A stretch of 7,085 nucleotides of DNA. Origin: CBDBIG01 sp965205845 [NCBI: bacterium] (GTDB taxonomy: Bacteria > SAR324). Within the stretch, counting starts at the first letter, position 1. Each line of letters starts with the position of its first letter. Location of the stretch: NCBI GenBank assembly GCA_965205845.1, contig CBDBIG010000006.1:1-7085 (forward strand), read 5' to 3'. The position numbers and the translations under genes were made by a program. Positions 1 to 7,085 of the stretch are shown in pieces. Under the pieces are notes generated by a model, which did no database searches, was not told the DNA's origin, and saw only the letters and a list, made by a program, of their open reading frames with translations.

Positions 1-208
1 GGGTTGGAAGATTAAGTGTTAGCATTCCGTAGTGAAAATAATCAAAATCGAGCTTTTTGTGATCGTGCTCCGTGTAATAGGTCACGTCGCTTGGCCAAAA
101 TGGCCCATCAACACGGTTCACTTCTCCTGCCGACCCCTTTCGACCAACAATCAAAGAAGGCCCTTCGGTCAATACATGGCATGACCAACCTAATATCCCG
201 TTAGCACC
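1..208 (-). pseudogene. hsdS: HsdS type I specificity subunit, distal fragment (cut by IS copy A, runs off window)
   Basis: This is the continuation of hsdS beyond the insertion of IS copy A. Read on the minus strand from 208, the frame is open to the window edge and encodes residues 37-105 of the reconstructed protein. It begins G-A-N-G-I-L-G-W and includes L-I-V-G-R-K-G-S-A-G-E-V and W-P-S-D-V-T-Y-Y. These are the standard landmarks of the first target-recognition domain of type I HsdS, which contacts one half of the bipartite DNA target. Family members are about 400-450 aa, so the rest of TRD1, the central conserved helix, TRD2 and the C-terminal helix should lie to the left of the window. 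The fragment has no start codon or ribosome site of its own and is separated from its 5' part by 1.7 kb. I infer that it is not expressed as a working subunit. The family call is firm; whether the remainder is intact cannot be seen. Confidence 0.88.
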
Positions 209-330
209 GTGACTACTCCTCGCCCTAAAGGACGAGGCTTCTTGTTTCTCAGGCTGCAACTGGCAGTGTGCCAGAATTACGCGAGCCTCCACAAGCAGAG
301 ACGGATAGCCCTTCCGCCTTTAGTTTCAGG
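189..330 (-). ncRNA. Predicted TnpB omega RNA (reRNA) of copy A with its guide in hsdS
   Basis: TnpB nucleases use an RNA made from the 3' end of tnpB and the element's right end, followed by a guide transcribed from the flanking host DNA. Here the scaffold would end at position 209 (TCAC), and the guide would start at 208 with GGTGCTAACGGGATATTAGG. That is hsdS sequence coding G-A-N-G-I-L-G. The expected TAM equals the transposon target, TTAT, which lay directly before the guide in the intact gene. The only structure I can point to is the right-end hairpin. The 5' limit (330) is a guess and the scaffold may reach further into tnpB. This is inference from family knowledge; no promoter or processing site was identified. 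Confidence 0.45.
209..241 (-). repeat. Right end (RE) of IS copy A: cleavage site, hairpin and guide tetranucleotide
   Basis: In the tnpB sense this reads GAAG (241-238), then a 20-nt hairpin (237-218; stem halves CCTCGTCC and GGGCGAGG with one G-T pair, loop TTTA), then AGTAG and TCAC ending at 209. By analogy with IS608, GAAG at the hairpin foot is the guide and TCAC the right cleavage site. IS608 uses GAAT with TCAA, so the last base changes in a matched way. The hairpin also lies at the 3' end of the predicted TnpB guide RNA scaffold. Confidence 0.75.
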
Positions 331-1418
331 ATACCTTGCTGCCGAATATTGATGGCAGCGTTAATATCGCGGTCATGCTCTTGGTCGCAGGTCTGGCACG
401 TCCATTGCCGCACCGACAGCGGCATAGCATCAACCTTAGTGCCGCAATCAGAACAGGTCTTACTGGATGCAAACCACTGGTCAATTTGCACGAGGTGCTT
501 ACCTGACCAAGCTGTTTTGTAGGTCAGCTTTCGGAGCAATTCGCCCCATGCCGCGTCAGCGATATGTTTGGCAAGCTTCCTATTCTTGAGCATGTTTTTG
601 ACTTTCAACGTCTCCACGCAGATTGCTTGATTTTCGTCAACCAGTCGTTTTGACAATTTATGTTGAAAGTCATTGCGCGTGTTGGCAGTTCTTTCGTGAG
701 CCTTGGCAACAAGTACACGCGCCTTGTTGCGGTTTGCCGACCCTTTCTTCTTTCGTGACAGTGTTTTTTGCTTGCGGCGCAAATTGGCCGCCGCACGTTT
801 CAAAATACGGGGGTTCTTTTGTTTTTCACCCGTGCTGGCAATCGCTAAATGCGTTATGCCCAAATCAATACCCGTCACCGCGTCCGCTTCAATCGTTTTT
901 AAGAGGGCTGGAACCTCCAGCCCATCATCACACAAGATTGACGCATAGTACTTACCTGTTTGAGTGCGCGAGATGGTGACGGTCTTAATCTTACCTACAA
1001 TCTCACGGTGCAGAACTGCTTTGACCGTGCCGACTTTGGGCAAGTACAGACTGACACCATTTACAATTTTGACCCGTTGCGGGTAGGACATGGCTTGTTT
1101 GCCGTGTTTGCTCTTAAAGCGGGGATAGCGGCCCTGTTTTCTAAAAAATCGCTTAAAGGCATCATCCAAATGCATCACCGATTGTTGCAAGGCTTGGCTA
1201 TCGGCTTCCTTTAGCCAGCCTGTTTCTTCCGTGGCTTTCAGTTCAACGAGCTTGTCCAAGGTCTGGCGCTTGCTGATGCTTTCGCCGCGCTCTTTCCAAG
1301 CGGAGCTACGCCAGCCCAAAGTAAAATTATACGCCCACCGCATCGCGCCAAATTGAAAGGCAAACGCCTTCCTCTGGTCAACAGTGGGATACAATCGGAC
1401 TTTGGTTGCCTTTAGCAT
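249..1418 (-). CDS. tnpB: TnpB, RNA-guided RuvC-type nuclease of IS605-family element (copy A)
   Basis: This is a 389-aa protein, a normal length for TnpB, the compact ancestor of Cas12. The N-terminus (M-L-K-A-T-K-V-R-L-Y-P-T) is the usual start of the wedge/helical domain. The RuvC acidic triad is present: D185 in G-I-D-L-G-I-T, E269 in C-V-E-T-L, and D351 in H-D-R-D-I-N-A-A. A C4 zinc finger is formed by C322, C325, C341 and C344. A basic helical segment (about 211-260, many K and R) lies between RuvC I and II, as expected for RNA/DNA contact. TnpB is not needed for transposition itself; in the family it cuts TAM-flanked targets guided by RNA from the right end and so favours retention of the element. 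The start ATG at 1418 leaves 22 bp to the divergent tnpA start; only a weak GAG-type ribosome site precedes it. The protein is identical to that of copy B and I see no damage. Confidence 0.95.
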   Translation of the reverse strand: MLKATKVRLYPTVDQRKAFAFQFGAMRWAYNFTLGWRSSAWKERGESISKRQTLDKLVELKATEETGWLKEADSQALQQSVMHLDDAFKRFFRKQGRYPRFKSKHGKQAMSYPQRVKIVNGVSLYLPKVGTVKAVLHREIVGKIKTVTISRTQTGKYYASILCDDGLEVPALLKTIEADAVTGIDLGITHLAIASTGEKQKNPRILKRAAANLRRKQKTLSRKKKGSANRNKARVLVAKAHERTANTRNDFQHKLSKRLVDENQAICVETLKVKNMLKNRKLAKHIADAAWGELLRKLTYKTAWSGKHLVQIDQWFASSKTCSDCGTKVDAMPLSVRQWTCQTCDQEHDRDINAAINIRQQGILKLKAEGLSVSACGGSRNSGTLPVAA

Positions 1419-1440
1419 ATCTCGACTCTACCATTGGTCT

Positions 1441-1863
1441 ATGGACAACTCAAATGAATATCGCACAGGCAGACATTGTGTTTTTGCGCTACACGTACAC
1501 TTGGTATTTATTACCAAATACCGCAGAGATGTGCTGTCAGAACTGGCTATACAGGACTTGCGGCACATCTTTGCCAAGGTCTGCAACGACTTTGAGGCGC
1601 AACTCGTCGAGTGTGACGGGGAAGACGACCATGTGCATCTGCTTATCAATTATCCGCCCAAAATATCCCTCTCTAAGCTGGTCAACAGTCTCAAGGGTGT
1701 ATCCAGTCGCCGTTTGCGAAACTTTCGCCCTGAAATTACGGGTAGGTATCGCAAAGGTGTCCTTTGGTCGCCGTCTTATTTTGCCGCTTCATGTGGTGGT
1801 GCGCCGCTCGATATTATCCGCAAATATGTCGAAACGCAGCGAGCCAACAAAAAACCGCGCTAG
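1441..1863 (+). CDS. tnpA: TnpA, IS200-type HUH (Y1) transposase (copy A)
   Basis: This is a 140-aa single-strand DNA transposase, a typical size for IS200/IS605 TnpA (Y1 transposase, REP-like HUH fold). The HUH metal site is H64-V-H66 in D-D-H-V-H-L-L. The catalytic tyrosine is Y129 in I-I-R-K-Y-V-E-T-Q, followed by Gln as is usual. The N-terminal strand L-V-F-I-T-K-Y-R-R and the K-G-V-L-W-S-P-S-Y segment are family hallmarks. I chose ATG 1441, not the upstream ATG at 1384: the upstream extension runs antisense through the start of tnpB and adds 19 residues not found in the family. No strong Shine-Dalgarno is visible, which fits the poor translation typical of these genes. The stop codon lies inside the 1853-1870 palindrome. 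Residue 94 is Asn here and Ser in copy B. Confidence 0.94.
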   Translation: MDNSNEYRTGRHCVFALHVHLVFITKYRRDVLSELAIQDLRHIFAKVCNDFEAQLVECDGEDDHVHLLINYPPKISLSKLVNSLKGVSSRRLRNFRPEITGRYRKGVLWSPSYFAASCGGAPLDIIRKYVETQRANKKPR

Positions 1864-1870
1864 CGCGGTT
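1853..1870 (-). terminator. Palindromic rho-independent terminator in left end of copy A
   Basis: This is a perfect 18-bp palindrome (AACCGCGCTAGCGCGGTT) overlapping the tnpA stop. On the minus strand the GC-rich stem runs into a T tract (GGTTTTTTG), the form of an intrinsic terminator for transcription entering from the host operon. On the plus strand the stem is followed by GCGCC, so it is a poor terminator for tnpA. I infer that it shields the element from impinging hsd operon transcription and makes the insertion polar. Confidence 0.7.
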
Positions 1871-1881
1871 GCGCCTTATAT

Positions 1882-1918
1882 CCCCGCCCTGAAGGACGAG
1901 GTTTTACGGCGCGTTCCG
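1882..1918 (-). repeat. Left end (LE) of IS copy A: tip, guide tetranucleotide and hairpin
   Basis: In the tnpB sense, the left tip begins at 1918, 17 nt before a 20-nt hairpin (1901-1882; CCTCGTCC and GGGCGGGG with G-T pairs, loop TTCA). The four bases at the hairpin's 5' foot are AAAA (1905-1902), which fit the target TTAT by the IS608 pattern (AAAG with TTAC). The hairpin has nearly the same sequence and the same orientation as the right-end one, a direct rather than inverted arrangement as expected for TnpA dimers. Confidence 0.75.
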
Positions 1919-1922
1919 ATAA
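1919..1922 (-). other. Insertion target/cleavage site TTAT of copy A (predicted TnpB TAM)
   Basis: The minus-strand TTAT directly precedes the left end. The same tetranucleotide precedes copy B. It is host sequence: with it the hsdS frame restores Val-Tyr-Gly (GTT TAT GGT). There is no duplicate at the other side of the element. Confidence 0.8.
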
Positions 1923-2026
1923 ACAGGAACTCCACCTTCGGGGTTCCGCTCCGCCTTCGCCAATGCTTTTCCATAGTGTAGTTTTGCCACTTCCCCAAGC
2001 GACTTAACCTTCCACCCCGCCTTCAT
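1919..2026 (-). pseudogene. hsdS: HsdS type I specificity subunit, 5' fragment (residues 1-36)
   Basis: hsdS starts at ATG 2026, overlapping the hsdM stop as ATGA, the usual translational coupling of hsdM and hsdS. It encodes M-K-A-G-W-K-V-K-S-L-G-E-V-A-K and ends at P-V-Y36, directly before the element. W-x-x-x-x-L-G-E-V followed by I/V-P-V-Y-G-A-N-G is the standard N-terminus of a type I specificity subunit. As the DNA stands, the frame runs four codons into the element and stops at TAA 1906-1904, giving a useless 40-aa peptide. Joining residue 36 to the 208-1 fragment restores an uninterrupted reading frame. I infer loss of the specificity subunit and so loss of targeted methylation and restriction. 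Confidence 0.88.
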
Positions 2027-3474
2027 AACATGCCCCTGATCTCGGCCAGTATCGCCGCCGTTTCTTTATCCCGTGCCATCATATCCTCGATAATCTCAGC
2101 GGGTGCCCGTAGCGGTGGAGCCTCGGGCGTATTGGGGTTTCTTACCGATAGATCACAGGTGGCCTCATCCAGATCGGCCACATTCACGGTCCAGCTTGTG
2201 TCGCTATCCGCGTGGCTTTTCTGCAAATCCACAAATTCCGCCAAATCCGCATCATTCAGCGGGTTGGTTTTTCCCATGTTGCGGCCCACGTTCATTTGGT
2301 AATACCAAATCTTGTCGGTGTTCACGCCCTTATCAAAAAACAGTACCACGGTTTTCACGCCCGCGCCCTGAAACGTGCCACTTGGGCAGTCCAGCACGGT
2401 ATGCAGATTGCAGGTTTCCAGCAACTCGCGGCGCAGGGCAATGCTGGCATTGTCCGTGTTGCTCAGAAACGTGTTCTTGATCACAATCGCACCGCGCCCG
2501 CCAGCCCGCAGGCTTTTGATAAAATGCTGCAAAAATAGATAAGCGGTTTCACCCGTTTTAATCGGGAAGTTTTGCCGAACCTCTTTGCGTTCCTTGCCGC
2601 CAAAAGGGGGATTGGCAAGGATAATATCGTAACGATCCTTTTCCTCAATGTCCGAAATATTCTCGGTCAGCGTGTTGGTGTGCAGGATATTAGGCGCATC
2701 TATGCCGTGCAGGATCAGATTCATAATCGCAATGACATAGGCGAGGCTTTTCTTTTCCTTGCCGTAAAACGTCTCGGTTTGCAGCGTGTTCAGGTCGGTG
2801 GTGGTGGTGGCTTGCCCGCGTAGAAAATCATAAGCCTCGCACAGAAACCCCGCCGATCCAACCGCCCCATCGTAAATCGTCTGCCCGATTTTGGGTTGGG
2901 TCACGTTGATCATGGCGCGGATCAATGGGCGCGGGGTATAATACTCGCCGCCATTGCGTCCCGCATTGCCCATGTTCTTGATCTTGGCCTCATAAAGCTC
3001 GGACAGCTCGTGCTTGTGATCTTGGGCTTTGAAACTAAGCTGGTCAATCAGATCAAGCGCATCACGCAAAGAATAGCCACTGGCTAATTTGTTTTTGATC
3101 TCCGCGAATATCTCACCGATTTTATATTCAATGGTGTTCGGGTTTTCGGCCCGTTGTCTGAACCCTTGCAAATAGGGGAATAATTGGCGGTCAACAAACT
3201 GGATCAAATCATCACCCGTCATCGCCGCGTCATGGTCAAGCGTGCCATCCGCGTTCTTGGGGGCTGCCCAAGTTGACCAACGGTGTTCGGCGTCCAGTAT
3301 ATGGGCGTATTCTTTGCTCTCCAGGGTCGCCTCGACTTGGCGCTCAGCTTCCAGATCATCAAGGTATTTCAGGAACAAAAGCCAAGAGGATTGTTCGGTG
3401 TAATCCAGTTCCGAAGAACAGCCCGCCTCTTTCCGCAATACATCATCAAGATTCTTAAAAATTTGTTCAAACAT
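2023..3474 (-). CDS. hsdM: HsdM, type I DNA N6-adenine methyltransferase subunit
   Basis: This 483-aa protein is full length for the family. In a type I complex two HsdM and one HsdS transfer a methyl group from S-adenosylmethionine to adenine N6 in a bipartite target, and HsdR adds cleavage. The N-terminal helical domain (about 1-160, with S-E-L-D-Y-T-E-Q-S-S-W-L-L-F-L-K-Y-L) precedes the catalytic domain. G-E-Y-Y-T-P-R-P-L-I (176-185) is the usual lead-in. Motif I is Y-D202-G-A-V-G-S-A-G-F, a variant of the classic D-P-x-x-G-T-G-G loop. Motif IV is N288-P-P-F, the catalytic amino-methyltransferase box. Residues 440-470 (V-R-N-P-N-T-P-E to the I-I-E-D helix) are the HsdS-facing tail. The start ATG 3474 is preceded by GGTAGGGA about 8 nt upstream. 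It sits 62 bp after the integrase stop and overlaps hsdS by 4 bp. The gene is undamaged, but its partner hsdS is split, so it is probably inactive unless another HsdS is encoded elsewhere. Confidence 0.95.
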   Translation of the reverse strand: MFEQIFKNLDDVLRKEAGCSSELDYTEQSSWLLFLKYLDDLEAERQVEATLESKEYAHILDAEHRWSTWAAPKNADGTLDHDAAMTGDDLIQFVDRQLFPYLQGFRQRAENPNTIEYKIGEIFAEIKNKLASGYSLRDALDLIDQLSFKAQDHKHELSELYEAKIKNMGNAGRNGGEYYTPRPLIRAMINVTQPKIGQTIYDGAVGSAGFLCEAYDFLRGQATTTTDLNTLQTETFYGKEKKSLAYVIAIMNLILHGIDAPNILHTNTLTENISDIEEKDRYDIILANPPFGGKERKEVRQNFPIKTGETAYLFLQHFIKSLRAGGRGAIVIKNTFLSNTDNASIALRRELLETCNLHTVLDCPSGTFQGAGVKTVVLFFDKGVNTDKIWYYQMNVGRNMGKTNPLNDADLAEFVDLQKSHADSDTSWTVNVADLDEATCDLSVRNPNTPEAPPLRAPAEIIEDMMARDKETAAILAEIRGML

Positions 3475-3536
3475 ATGTATTCCCTACCATTTCCCCTTAT
3501 TCAATTCCGAGGTTATCCCAATGTAACGACTGGCTT

Positions 3537-3981
3537 TTATGAGGGCAAGCTGCGTTTACTTGCCCTGTCGTTTACTTGCCCCTTGATTAATTCGCCCTGC
3601 CGTTGCGTGGACACGGGTAAATACGCGGAAAATGTTGTCATGATGTTGTCATGACCGAGGTTTTGTGACCACGCCTTTTGCATGTCCAAAGGCATTTTGC
3701 GGTCACTCATTTCCTGCACAAGCGTTTTGCGAATGCTATGAGCGGTGTATTCGGGCTGGTGTACCTTCGCAAAGGCGTTGCGGACTACGGAATTAATTTT
3801 GGCGGCATTGGCATAGGTGTCGCGCGATAGCGTGTTGAAGTTAAACCGCCCATTACTCAATACACGTTCCGGTTTTGGAAACAACGCGTCTTGCGGCCCA
3901 TACAGCTTTTCTTTCGTCAGGTAATTCACCCAAGCTTCAAAACAGTCACGATATTCTATTCCAATCGGAAAAAACCAAGTC
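3537..3981 (-). pseudogene. Tyrosine recombinase/integrase, C-terminal catalytic fragment (cut by IS copy B)
   Basis: This is the distal half of the integrase interrupted by IS copy B. It codes for the last base of codon 202 through residue 349 and the TAA stop. It starts T-W-F-F-P-I-G directly after the element and contains most of the active site: H283-S-I-R286 (the HxxR box), G-H312, and the nucleophile Y322 in F-S-A-Y-L. The first catalytic Arg is in the other fragment. An in-frame GTG at 3929 could open a 130-aa peptide, but no good ribosome site precedes it and this half alone lacks Arg167 and the Lys region, so it should not be a working enzyme. The last residues are encoded by a tandem repeat (3553-3581). 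The recombinase call is firm; activity is judged lost. Confidence 0.9.
3543..3581. repeat. Tandem 13-bp repeat and hairpin at the 3' end of the integrase gene
   Basis: CGTTTACTTGCCC occurs at 3553-3565 and again at 3569-3581, a 16-bp period. GGGCAAG at 3543-3549 is the reverse complement of the CTTGCCC at 3559-3565, giving a 7-bp stem with a 9-nt loop. On the minus strand the stem is followed by TCATAAAA, not a T-run, so it is a poor intrinsic terminator. Repeated arms next to an integrase gene can be recombinase or excisionase binding sites, but that is only a suggestion here. Confidence 0.5.
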
Positions 3982-4103
3982 GTGACTACTCCTCGCCCTA
4001 AAGGACGAGGCTTCTTGTTTCTCAGGCTGCAACTGGCAGTGTGCCAGAATTACGCGAGCCTCCACAAGCAGAGACGGATAGCCCTTCCGCCTTTAGTTTC
4101 AGG
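3962..4103 (-). ncRNA. Predicted TnpB omega RNA of copy B with its guide in the integrase gene
   Basis: By the same reasoning as for copy A, the scaffold ends at 3982 and the guide is the adjoining host DNA, GACTTGGTTTTTTCCGATTG. This would match the uninterrupted integrase allele preceded by TTAT. The 5' limit is a guess. The two copies therefore share one nuclease and scaffold but carry different guides. Confidence 0.43.
3982..4014 (-). repeat. Right end (RE) of IS copy B
   Basis: Same structure as in copy A: foot GAAG (4014-4011), hairpin (4010-3991), and right cleavage tetranucleotide TCAC ending at 3982. Downstream host sequence begins GACTTGG of the integrase. Confidence 0.75.
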
Positions 4104-5191
4104 ATACCTTGCTGCCGAATATTGATGGCAGCGTTAATATCGCGGTCATGCTCTTGGTCGCAGGTCTGGCACGTCCATTGCCGCACCGACAGCGGCATAG
4201 CATCAACCTTAGTGCCGCAATCAGAACAGGTCTTACTGGATGCAAACCACTGGTCAATTTGCACGAGGTGCTTACCTGACCAAGCTGTTTTGTAGGTCAG
4301 CTTTCGGAGCAATTCGCCCCATGCCGCGTCAGCGATATGTTTGGCAAGCTTCCTATTCTTGAGCATGTTTTTGACTTTCAACGTCTCCACGCAGATTGCT
4401 TGATTTTCGTCAACCAGTCGTTTTGACAATTTATGTTGAAAGTCATTGCGCGTGTTGGCAGTTCTTTCGTGAGCCTTGGCAACAAGTACACGCGCCTTGT
4501 TGCGGTTTGCCGACCCTTTCTTCTTTCGTGACAGTGTTTTTTGCTTGCGGCGCAAATTGGCCGCCGCACGTTTCAAAATACGGGGGTTCTTTTGTTTTTC
4601 ACCCGTGCTGGCAATCGCTAAATGCGTTATGCCCAAATCAATACCCGTCACCGCGTCCGCTTCAATCGTTTTTAAGAGGGCTGGAACCTCCAGCCCATCA
4701 TCACACAAGATTGACGCATAGTACTTACCTGTTTGAGTGCGCGAGATGGTGACGGTCTTAATCTTACCTACAATCTCACGGTGCAGAACTGCTTTGACCG
4801 TGCCGACTTTGGGCAAGTACAGACTGACACCATTTACAATTTTGACCCGTTGCGGGTAGGACATGGCTTGTTTGCCGTGTTTGCTCTTAAAGCGGGGATA
4901 GCGGCCCTGTTTTCTAAAAAATCGCTTAAAGGCATCATCCAAATGCATCACCGATTGTTGCAAGGCTTGGCTATCGGCTTCCTTTAGCCAGCCTGTTTCT
5001 TCCGTGGCTTTCAGTTCAACGAGCTTGTCCAAGGTCTGGCGCTTGCTGATGCTTTCGCCGCGCTCTTTCCAAGCGGAGCTACGCCAGCCCAAAGTAAAAT
5101 TATACGCCCACCGCATCGCGCCAAATTGAAAGGCAAACGCCTTCCTCTGGTCAACAGTGGGATACAATCGGACTTTGGTTGCCTTTAGCAT
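4022..5191 (-). CDS. tnpB: TnpB, RNA-guided RuvC-type nuclease of IS605-family element (copy B)
   Basis: This 389-aa protein is identical in every residue to the TnpB of copy A, with D185, E269 and D351 and the C322/C325/C341/C344 zinc finger intact. What differs is its context: read-through from this gene crosses the right end into the distal integrase fragment and towards hsdM on the same strand. Its promoter could therefore be the only remaining source of hsdM transcription, since a terminator at the other end of the element blocks the host operon. That last point is inference. Start and ribosome-site considerations are as for the other copy. Confidence 0.95.
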   Translation of the reverse strand: MLKATKVRLYPTVDQRKAFAFQFGAMRWAYNFTLGWRSSAWKERGESISKRQTLDKLVELKATEETGWLKEADSQALQQSVMHLDDAFKRFFRKQGRYPRFKSKHGKQAMSYPQRVKIVNGVSLYLPKVGTVKAVLHREIVGKIKTVTISRTQTGKYYASILCDDGLEVPALLKTIEADAVTGIDLGITHLAIASTGEKQKNPRILKRAAANLRRKQKTLSRKKKGSANRNKARVLVAKAHERTANTRNDFQHKLSKRLVDENQAICVETLKVKNMLKNRKLAKHIADAAWGELLRKLTYKTAWSGKHLVQIDQWFASSKTCSDCGTKVDAMPLSVRQWTCQTCDQEHDRDINAAINIRQQGILKLKAEGLSVSACGGSRNSGTLPVAA

Positions 5192-5213
5192 ATCTCGACT
5201 CTACCATTGGTCT

Positions 5214-5636
5214 ATGGACAACTCAAATGAATATCGCACAGGCAGACATTGTGTTTTTGCGCTACACGTACACTTGGTATTTATTACCAAATACCGCAGA
5301 GATGTGCTGTCAGAACTGGCTATACAGGACTTGCGGCACATCTTTGCCAAGGTCTGCAACGACTTTGAGGCGCAACTCGTCGAGTGTGACGGGGAAGACG
5401 ACCATGTGCATCTGCTTATCAATTATCCGCCCAAAATATCCCTCTCTAAGCTGGTCAACAGTCTCAAGGGTGTATCCAGTCGCCGTTTGCGAAGCTTTCG
5501 CCCTGAAATTACGGGTAGGTATCGCAAAGGTGTCCTTTGGTCGCCGTCTTATTTTGCCGCTTCATGTGGTGGTGCGCCGCTCGATATTATCCGCAAATAT
5601 GTCGAAACGCAGCGAGCCAACAAAAAACCGCGCTAG
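5214..5636 (+). CDS. tnpA: TnpA, IS200-type HUH (Y1) transposase (copy B)
   Basis: This 140-aa Y1 transposase has the H64-V-H66 metal site and Y129 nucleophile. It differs from copy A only at residue 94, Ser (AGC) here instead of Asn (AAC), in L-R-S-F-R-P. This lies between the HUH motif and the K-G-V-L-W-S-P segment, away from the catalytic residues, so both versions should fold. The start was placed at ATG 5214 for the same reason as in copy A: an upstream ATG at 5157 would extend it antisense through the tnpB start region. Its gene is transcribed against the host operon. Confidence 0.94.
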   Translation: MDNSNEYRTGRHCVFALHVHLVFITKYRRDVLSELAIQDLRHIFAKVCNDFEAQLVECDGEDDHVHLLINYPPKISLSKLVNSLKGVSSRRLRSFRPEITGRYRKGVLWSPSYFAASCGGAPLDIIRKYVETQRANKKPR

Positions 5637-5643
5637 CGCGGTT
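5626..5643 (-). terminator. Palindromic rho-independent terminator in left end of copy B
   Basis: Same 18-bp GC-rich palindrome as in copy A, followed on the minus strand by a T tract. It lies just inside the point where integrase-operon transcripts enter the element, so it should end them before the distal integrase fragment and hsdM. Confidence 0.7.
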
Positions 5644-5654
5644 GCGCCTTATAT

Positions 5655-5691
5655 CCCCGCCCTGAAGGACGAGGTTTTACGGCGCGTTCCG
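5655..5691 (-). repeat. Left end (LE) of IS copy B
   Basis: Same as in copy A: left tip at 5691, guide tetranucleotide AAAA at the hairpin foot (5678-5675), and a 20-nt hairpin with G-T pairs (5674-5655). Confidence 0.75.
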
Positions 5692-5695
5692 ATAA
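5692..5695 (-). other. Insertion target/cleavage site TTAT of copy B (predicted TnpB TAM)
   Basis: Minus-strand TTAT directly precedes the left end and belongs to the integrase reading frame (ACG ATT AT, with the last codon completed by G at 3981 to give Met). Same tetranucleotide as at copy A although the surrounding bases differ. Confidence 0.8.
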
Positions 5696-6296
5696 TCGTT
5701 TTGCTGTTTTTGGTGTTCACATCCCGCCCATCTTGAAAAACAGACCCTTCAACCAGACTGATATGTTTAATCTTTAAGGATGCCACTGCCCCATCCCTTG
5801 CCCCTGTCAGCATAAAAAACGCAAACAAGGCTTTGTCCCGTTTTTCCAGGTCAGTGCCGTCAGGCATGGCTTGAAACGCATGGAAAGCCTGTGCCATCGA
5901 CGGATAGGGAATATCACGCTGGGTATGCGCCACGCGGGCATTTTTGGCATTGTTGTTGAAATACTCAACATCCGGGTAACTAATCCTTGACTTGTAACCT
6001 TGTTGCCCTGCCAGCCAATGGAAAAACCCTTTGACCAAGCGTAAGGTTGCATCCGTTGTGCTATGACTTAACGGCTTTCCTGTTTTCGGGTGCCGCGCCT
6101 TTTCCAGAAAGTTTTTAAACCTGCCCGCCTGATCAATATGAAACGTCTTAAACGATTTGAATTTGGTGCTGGTTTCAAATTTAATCAAAGCCGCCGCGAC
6201 CTTATCAATCGACTTTTGATCCTGCCCTTTGGCATGTTTCAGATAAGCCATATATTGCCGCTTGATCCGTTCGTTTGTTTCGCAATATTTACGCAT
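5692..6296 (-). pseudogene. Tyrosine recombinase/integrase, N-terminal fragment (residues 1-201 and part of 202)
   Basis: Starts at ATG 6296 with a good ribosome site (AAGGGGAG) about 8 nt upstream. It carries the SAM-like core-binding domain (about 1-110, with G-F-F-H-W-L near 90-95) and the first part of the catalytic domain: T-G-A-R167-D-G-A-V-A-S-L holds catalytic Arg I, and T-K-N-S-K-T (195-200) the Lys region. The frame then enters IS copy B and stops at 5649, giving a 215-aa product with 13 foreign residues. Joined to the 3981-3537 part it yields a 349-aa phage-type integrase with R, K, HxxR, H and Y all present; the junction S-K-T-I-M-T-W-F-F-P-I-G matches the S-K-T-F-T-T-W-F-F-P-V-G found in related integrases. 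It lies 52 bp after the helix-turn-helix gene. It probably once moved the island or acted on a site near it; the target is unknown. Confidence 0.9.
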
Positions 6297-6348
6297 GGTC
6301 CCGCTCCCCTTTCGAAGGTATGGTTTAGGTTGGGTTTGGAAGGTTCCT

Positions 6349-6774
6349 TTAGGCTTGCTTCATCATGCTTATGGTAATTTCGAAAACCCGCGATAATTCA
6401 GGCAAACTGGCCTTGCTGGCAAAGCGGTAACAGCAGCCTTCACACACCTCACACAAAGCCACCAAGCGGCCCCTGCTCTCATCTACGGGGATGTAATCGA
6501 CCAACATGCCAAAGGGCTTTTGAGCTTTACGGCAGTGCAAACAATAAAACTCATCCTGCGCGGTCGGGCGTTTTGCTTTGGCCTTTTGATGTTCCAAAAA
6601 AGCCCGCAGCGCACATCCAAGAATAAGCGTCGGGCGTTGAGCACCTAAAATCGGCAAGCCTGCTTTGATCCATATCCGAATGGTTTGTTGTGTTACTCCG
6701 AGCAAGTCCGCGACCTCGGACACATCATATGATTGATGTATTCGTATTGATTGGACCTTATAGTGCCTAGGCAT
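6349..6774 (-). CDS. Helix-turn-helix protein with C-terminal cysteine (zinc-ribbon-like) region
   Basis: This 141-aa protein starts at ATG 6774. That start overlaps the AlpA-like gene by 8 bp (GATAATGCCTAG), an arrangement typical of translational coupling. A longer frame opens at 6942, but its first 56 codons only shadow the AlpA-like gene. Residues 16-60 form a MerR/excisionase-type helix-turn-helix (Y-D-V-S-E-V-A-D-L-L-G-V-T-Q-Q-T-I-R-I-W-I) used for DNA binding. A basic linker (K-A-K-A-K-R-P) leads to a likely metal site: C78-x-x-C81 (Y-C-L-H-C), then C108-x-x-C111-x-x-C114-C115. Position between an AlpA-like gene and an integrase suggests a regulator or recombination directionality factor. 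I do not recognise a named family for the whole protein, and no signal or membrane segment is seen. Confidence 0.82.
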   Translation of the reverse strand: MPRHYKVQSIRIHQSYDVSEVADLLGVTQQTIRIWIKAGLPILGAQRPTLILGCALRAFLEHQKAKAKRPTAQDEFYCLHCRKAQKPFGMLVDYIPVDESRGRLVALCEVCEGCCYRFASKASLPELSRVFEITISMMKQA

Positions 6775-6973
6775 TATCAGGGCTTTCGAACAACGCCCGC
6801 ACATCCTCAGCCCGCCAAACGGTGGTGCGCGGCCCCAGCTTTTGCGGCTTGGGAAAACGCCCGTCTTTGATCCCCTGCCACCACGTGGACTTGGAAACAG
6901 GGATCGGCCCGTTTGGGGCCAGGATATGGGACAGGCGAACAAAGCCTGTTTTGGGAAAGTCTGGATAGTCCAT
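6767..6973 (-). CDS. AlpA-family small DNA-binding regulator
   Basis: This 68-aa protein is about the size of AlpA/excisionase-like proteins. It has the family pattern V-R-L-S-H-I-L (12-18), then I-P-V-S-K-S-T-W-W-Q-G-I-K-D-G-R-F-P-K-P (24-43), where S27-G34 form the recognition helix, and the wing G-P-R-T-T-V-W-R-A-E-D-V-R-A-L. In E. coli CP4-57, AlpA activates an excision integrase; related proteins sit next to integrase genes in many islands. Here it is the first gene of the operon and is followed, with overlap, by a second DNA-binding protein. The ATG at 6973 is preceded by GAGG 10 nt upstream within an inverted repeat. I infer a role in controlling integrase expression or excision; the partner integrase is now broken. 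Confidence 0.85.
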   Translation of the reverse strand: MDYPDFPKTGFVRLSHILAPNGPIPVSKSTWWQGIKDGRFPKPQKLGPRTTVWRAEDVRALFESPDNA

Positions 6974-7085
6974 TGCTACTCAACCTCGTTTAATTACGGT
7001 TGAGGCGGTTTTGCACTGTTCTTTACGAAATGTGTCGGAACAGAATAAAGCCTATCCTGACAAAATAGCCTATTGATTTTAATAG
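6974..7085 (-). promoter_or_regulatory. Upstream region of the operon with two inverted repeats (possible operators)
   Basis: No gene is visible in these 112 bases. CTCAACC (6979-6985) and GGTTGAG (6998-7004) form a 7-bp inverted repeat with a 12-bp AT-rich centre, ending 5 bp before the AlpA-like start and covering its ribosome site. A second inverted repeat, CTGTTC (7016-7021) and GAACAG (7038-7043), lies further upstream. Either could be a repressor site, and the first could also hide the ribosome site as an RNA hairpin. I looked for sigma70 boxes and found only weak matches, so no promoter is assigned. Confidence 0.4.

Follow-up and report, generated by a model that had tools for sequence, protein, structure and literature searches.

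The window analysed here is a stretch of 7,085 nucleotides from CBDBIG01 sp965205845, a bacterium of the SAR324 lineage (contig CBDBIG010000006.1, positions 1 to 7,085). It very probably carries two recent insertions of one IS200/IS605-family element in the type I restriction-modification cassette of an AlpA-HTH-integrase island, a reading to which a probability of about 95% is given. In this reading the bacterium that carries the island looks Rhodobacterales-like. One copy lies inside hsdS and the other inside a tyrosine integrase gene, Int2. The features on which this reading depends are as follows.

209..1918, minus strand (the top strand of the element is the minus strand of the window): IS200/IS605-family element copy 1, inside hsdS
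3982..5691, minus strand: IS200/IS605-family element copy 2, splitting the integrase gene and differing from copy 1 at a single base
1919..2026, minus strand: hsdS 5' part, 36 codons (junction frame and homologue alignment)
1..208, minus strand: hsdS continuation, which leaves the window (junction frame and homologue alignment)
5692..6296, minus strand: Int2 5' part (homologues of the N-terminal part stop at about residue 201)
3537..3981, minus strand: Int2 3' part (Pfam Phage_integrase below the cut-off; homologues)

The two element copies

Copies 1 and 2 are each 1,710 bp long, have the same orientation and are spaced 2,063 bp apart. There is a single difference between them (1721 A and 5494 G, TnpA residue 94). 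Their identity extends four bases beyond the high end, as TTAT, and one base beyond the low end, as C208 and C3981. No target duplication was found at either copy. These results agree with an earlier prediction, made from the letters of this DNA, that two near-identical IS605-type elements had inserted 3' of TTAT.

1919..1922, minus strand: target tetranucleotide TTAT 5' of the copy 1 left end, predicted from IS608 and ISDra2 to be the left cleavage site and the transposon-associated motif (TAM) of TnpB
5692..5695, minus strand: target tetranucleotide TTAT 5' of the copy 2 left end, with the same predicted role
1441..1863, plus strand: tnpA copy 1, Y1 HUH transposase of 140 amino acids (Pfam Y1_Tnp)
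5214..5636: tnpA copy 2, counterpart of the copy 1 gene
249..1418, minus strand: tnpB copy 1, RNA-guided nuclease family, 389 amino acids (Pfam; ISDra2 TnpB)
4022..5191: tnpB copy 2, counterpart of the copy 1 gene

TnpA matches Pfam Y1_Tnp across the full profile (1-121 of 121, 1.6e-40). Its alignment with the TnpA of IS608 (2a6m, 3.1e-21) spans the catalytic residues, and H64, H66, and Y129 are present. TnpB aligns with the TnpB of ISDra2 (8bf8, 1e-81) through the catalytic residues. The OrfB_IS605 and Cas12f1-like TNB domains score above the Pfam cut-offs, RuvC residues D185, E269, and D351 are kept, and the CxxC pairs of the zinc ribbon stand at 322 and 341. The genes tnpA and tnpB diverge in both copies, which is the layout of IS605 and ISDra2. 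We know of no name for the 1,710-bp element and, judged from its sequence, it is a previously unnamed member of the IS200/IS605 family with the IS605 layout.

Assemblies are known to go wrong at identical repeats of 1.7 kb, and a single real insertion could have been turned into two in this way. However, the copies differ by one base and their junctions are exact at TTAT and GTCAC. Each copy also breaks a different gene, whose halves fit together without loss, and a mis-join would need chance placement at both ends. Such an artefact is considered highly improbable.

Rejoined genes and their uninterrupted homologues

When C208 and C3981 are kept with the host genes, the rejoined frames read V-Y-G-A-N in hsdS and T-I-M-T-W in the integrase. 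The alternative, that these two bases belong to the element, was rejected: both frames shift when they are excluded from the rejoined gene, and relatives of the element end at GTCAC. The exact excision units are therefore 209-1918 and 3982-5691, and the clean splitting of both genes that had been proposed from the letters is borne out. Among 39 right ends of relatives, GTCAC is present in 34 and is followed by 34 different 10-mers, among which each of the four bases occurs as the first letter. The other five comprise one end that lies elsewhere (L005), one contig end (L009), one distant relative (L028), and two variants, GTTAC (L049) and GTCAG (L059).

When the N-terminal part of Int2 was searched against 390 Rhodobacterales genomes, 84 matched, and the strong matches stop at about residues 200-202, where the element starts. 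The alignments of the 20 listed loci (L103-L122) all run through the Int2 junction, with no gap inside 15 residues of it. The same holds through the junction for L081 and for L076, a plasmid of Ruegeria conchae that is 50% identical to Int2 over 337 amino acids. At the DNA level, the match of L183 to the integrase (74% over 622 bp) is ungapped and extends 20 bp beyond the junction. The C-terminal part of Int2 gives a sub-threshold match to Pfam Phage_integrase (19.6 bits, cut-off 27.1), and Int2 homologues carry the annotation site-specific integrase. No relative of the integrase was found in viral_contigs.

HsdS has matches in 18 of the 390 genomes. Nineteen of 20 loci align without a gap within 5 residues of its junction, and L082 gave no alignment. 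In many of the homologues a gap of one residue lies some 6 residues upstream of the junction, and L140 has stops. In an initial set, joined HsdS matched one of seven loci (L080). The restored frames thus fit their families at both sites, as had been predicted, although these homologues belong to other species and show the reading frame of the family, not the actual alleles before insertion. The order alpA-HTH-int-hsdM-hsdS-hsdR is found at L158, where neither insertion is present. Its products are identical to those of the window at 83% (alpA), 44% (HTH), 58% and 44% (the two Int2 parts), and 67% (HsdM), and its HsdS resembles that of the window in the N-terminal stretch only.

The Int2 homologue of L076 has an in-frame stop near residue 307, so it is broken by another route.

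Element ends and the choice of target

Sub-terminal hairpins were found at both ends of the element on one strand, whereas terminal inverted repeats are absent.

1882..1901, minus strand: left-end hairpin copy 1, 8-bp stem and 4-nt loop (folding)
5655..5674, minus strand: left-end hairpin copy 2, counterpart of copy 1
218..237, minus strand: right-end hairpin copy 1, 8-bp stem and 4-nt loop (folding)
3991..4010, minus strand: right-end hairpin copy 2, counterpart of copy 1
1902..1907, minus strand: GTAAAA, which contains the guide AAAA, at the base of the left-end hairpin of copy 1 (covaries with the fourth target base)
238..241 (copy 1) and 4011..4014 (copy 2), minus strand: right-end guide GAAG, ahead of the right hairpin
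209..212 (copy 1) and 3982..3985 (copy 2), minus strand: right-end cleavage tetranucleotide TCAC, with a role predicted from IS608

In the available part of one source, the TTAC of IS608 pairs with the guide AAAG and its TCAA with GAAT (PMC5934647). The same relation was looked for in relatives of the window element. A signature of GTAAAN and hairpin fits 39 places; 10 of these are without a hairpin and were removed, and 29 left ends were kept, including both window copies. In 28 of the 29, the guide base next to the hairpin is complementary to the fourth base of the target, although these left ends share ancestry and so are not 28 independent events. TTAT with guide base A is found in six (the two window copies and the closest relatives, L001, L002, L003, and L047). 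Nineteen left ends of more distant relatives have TTAG with guide base C (...AAAC), and one, from Helicobacter bizzozeronii (L066), has TTAC with guide base G (...AAAG). Among the right ends that were found by pattern, TCAC is present in 31 of 33 and the guide GAAG in 32 of 33.

The original prediction had called TTAT degenerate. A loosely chosen target was rejected on account of the complementarity of guide and target, and TTAT instead fits a 4-nt guide at the left end. Copies that are not preceded by TTAT had also been expected to speak against the prediction. This expectation does not hold, since the relatives at TTAG and TTAC carry matching changes in their guides. The element is a clean textbook case in which target and guide obey the IS608 rule. 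Its relatives form a natural series of TTAT/AAAA, TTAG/AAAC, and TTAC/AAAG, from which the rule can be read in genomes.

Two further observations concern the ends. In Idiomarina loihiensis (L015), left ends are found at 3421 and 3464, 43 bp apart, with TAAG before the inner one, and one element's left end seems to lie inside or beside that of another. The right end of copy 2 (3969-4141, minus strand) covers the whole HgcC model of Rfam, at 18.8 bits against a threshold of 50. As a guess, the HgcC family could represent right-end RNAs of IS605-type elements.

Several results count against the reading of two recent insertions. In L007, TTAG is combined with guide base T, the sole break of the complement at the fourth base, and L013 (TGAG, C) and L015 (TAAG, C) deviate at the second target base. 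The folding energy of the hairpins is unexceptional compared with shuffled sequences (z -0.99 and -1.85), so the support for the hairpins comes from position and relatives, not from energy. No Rfam family scored above threshold in the element. An empty allele from the same strain or species was not found among the loci compared, nor were other copies of this very element, for which the best DNA identity was 71%. That TnpA, TnpB, and the guide RNA are active is a prediction from the family.

Matches to the element DNA were obtained in four of the 390 Rhodobacterales genomes (best 71%) and in two of three genomes of the genus of G002. Four phage records match, with 8-26% covered, and the exact left end gave no matches in viral_contigs. 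When the whole window was compared with plasmids, 86 records matched and none covered 80%; the ones listed match at the element ends only.

The defence island around the insertions

The host genes of the window lie on the minus strand in the order alpA, HTH regulator, Int2 (split), hsdM, and hsdS (split, leaving the window). The type I restriction-modification system is thus represented by a full-length HsdM and by HsdS in two parts, and the window stops inside hsdS. HsdM is 71% identical to a protein of a Bradyrhizobium plasmid. In addition to the genes given above, the island contains:

2023..3474, minus strand: hsdM, type I methyltransferase, intact (Pfam; PADLOC MTase_I, 2.9e-156)
about 6349..6774, minus strand: MerR/HTH_17-type regulator of the island module (Pfam and relatives)
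6767..6973, minus strand: alpA-type regulator of the island module (Pfam Phage_AlpA; 83-86% to L076, L158, and L183)

Across Rhodobacterales, Int2 stands in a module together with an arm-type integrase, a hypothetical gene, in some cases alpA, and an HTH regulator. The core of this tRNA-associated island is formed by alpA, the HTH regulator, and Int2, at 3537-6973 in the window. The 28 best matches to Int2 among Rhodobacterales (L141-L168) were all surveyed. In at least 17 of them, a raw count with no background rate, PADLOC recognises a defence family no more than about 6.5 kb beyond Int2; the scan covered all loci but L142, L147 (contig end), L154, L163, L165, and L167. At least five kinds of defence are represented. 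Type I restriction (L141, L146, L157, L158, and L161), type IIG-like systems (L144, L145, L151, L153, L156, and L160), and type III systems (L148 and L150) were found, as were Cas9 with Cas1 of CRISPR type II (L143), Cas3 of CRISPR type I-C (L159), PbeA (L155), and MzaC (L168). No PADLOC match was obtained for L149, L152, L162, L164, and L166, in one or two proteins scanned each. The relatives of the window's module hold defence cargo; thus, as far as its sequence tells, both element copies are in a defence-carrying island.

Of 12 loci examined, nine carry a gene for tRNA-Ser or tRNA-Arg immediately ahead of the first integrase (L142-L149 and L185) and two have one at the far side (L141 and L150). 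None was found in L183.

L183 (G576) is the closest DNA relative of the module that was found (Int2 77%, alpA 86%). It has ordinary metabolic genes after Int2, and no defence gene was recognised there by eye, no PADLOC scan having been made at that locus. In L143, Cas9 (4870-8117, in the orientation of Int2) is in two overlapping frames, which is possibly a frameshift, and is followed by Cas1.

Origin and possible consequences of the pair

TnpA would fold the top strand, in single-stranded form, at each of the two hairpins, pair AAAA with TTAT and GAAG with TCAC, and cut. It would then join TTAT scarlessly to the right flank, and the single-stranded DNA circle would insert 3' of another TTAT, as is described for IS608 and ISDra2 (PMC5934647, PMC8612924). 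One copy could be the direct daughter of the other, if the excised circle met the same replication fork. The single difference in 1,710 bp, the spacing of 2,063 bp, and the shared orientation are in keeping with such local hopping. Near-identity is, however, expected from any recent spread, and two copies within 2 kb would not be rare if the genome holds many. With these two as the only copies in the genome, a spacing of 2,063 bp would be unlikely; with many copies it would be unremarkable. TTAT occurs 29 times, both strands counted, in those 3,665 bases of the window that belong to the host, so that targets are plentiful and not limiting. The shared orientation agrees with the peel-and-paste transposition on the lagging strand outlined in part of one source (PMC8612924), yet it has a 50% chance of arising anyway. 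Local hopping is a tentative explanation, with the odds clearly against it. Insertion into single-stranded or replicating DNA had also been proposed from the letters; two copies in one window would fit this, local hopping, selection, and mere chance at an ordinary copy number alike.

While the element is in place, HsdS would be truncated and the methylase should be without its specificity subunit. Int2 would be cut off before its C-terminal catalytic half. A type I system without hsdS neither cuts nor methylates. The insertions could have been kept by selection, in that they either disable a restriction system that is costly or toxic, or halt the movement of the island. Both are within genes of one module, and one of them is in hsdS, which would suit this view. 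Against it, there are only two insertions in one window, and insertions in coding sequence are expected where most DNA codes. Moreover, the copies in relatives have diverse genomic neighbourhoods. Selection is an unlikely reason for the pair.

The two insertions could also be retained by the element itself. TnpB, with a right-end RNA that ends in about 16 nt of flank, would be expected to cut TTAT plus that flank, a sequence present in alleles that the element has left or never entered. The predicted guides are given below, with positions taken from what the available text on ISDra2 reports (PMC8612924); each 16-nt sequence is found once in the window.

193..208, minus strand: hsdS flank, predicted to serve as the 16-nt guide in the copy 1 right-end RNA
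3966..3981, minus strand: integrase flank, predicted to serve as the 16-nt guide in the copy 2 right-end RNA

The guide RNA would correspond to the flank and TTAT to the motif, so TnpB would cut the uninterrupted site and thereby favour retention of the insertion. Each copy would in this way retain its own site. A gene-drive effect of such a kind on plasmids is reported in the available portion of a preprint (PMC11870625). The two copies may then be self-guarded, scarlessly reversible off-switches of the defence island, with each TnpB cutting any intact version of its own target, hsdS or the integrase gene, that stands beside TTAT on a sister or incoming DNA, which is then overwritten with the interrupted one. 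This proposal is speculative and doubtful. If true, the restriction cargo of the island would be silent and the second integrase split until the element leaves, and both could be restored in one step. If TnpB guides fix insertions in defence genes, the retention of a transposon would be tied to whether anti-phage systems are silenced or restored.

Comparison with known systems

IS608 of Helicobacter pylori shares with the window element the full-length TnpA match, the catalytic residues, a target in the left flank, and guides at the feet of the hairpins. The target of IS608 is TTAC and that of the window element TTAT, with the guide changed to match. The two also differ in layout, since tnpA and tnpB of IS608 presumably run in the same direction whereas those of the window element diverge. 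The right site is of the TCAx type in both, and the pairs TTAC/AAAG and TCAA/GAAT of IS608, as given in the available text, correspond to TTAT/AAAA and TCAC/GAAG in the window (PMC5934647).

ISDra2 of Deinococcus radiodurans has the TnpB to which that of the window was matched (1e-81), and the logic of right-end RNA and TAM appears applicable, as far as it is laid out in the sections available (PMC8612924). According to the same sections, the target and TAM of ISDra2 is the pentanucleotide TTGAT, unlike the TTAT of the window (PMC8612924).

The elements of L001, L002, and L003, in metagenome-assembled genomes of Gammaproteobacteria, Aestuariivita, and Pseudomonadales, have TnpB proteins 69-75% identical to that of the window. 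They share TTAT/AAAA and the same right end. The copy in the L002 genome has about 71% DNA identity to the window element, and the insertion sites of all three differ from those in the window.

The islands of Pseudomonas with intY and alpA (I23, I44, and I55) likewise combine a tyrosine integrase and AlpA with variable defence cargo, according to one source (PMC12595487). Those islands are described as lying at tmRNA, and their AlpA is at the opposite end (PMC12595487). Relatives of the window's module instead lie by tRNA-Ser or tRNA-Arg, and in the window alpA, the HTH regulator, and Int2 are together beside the cargo.

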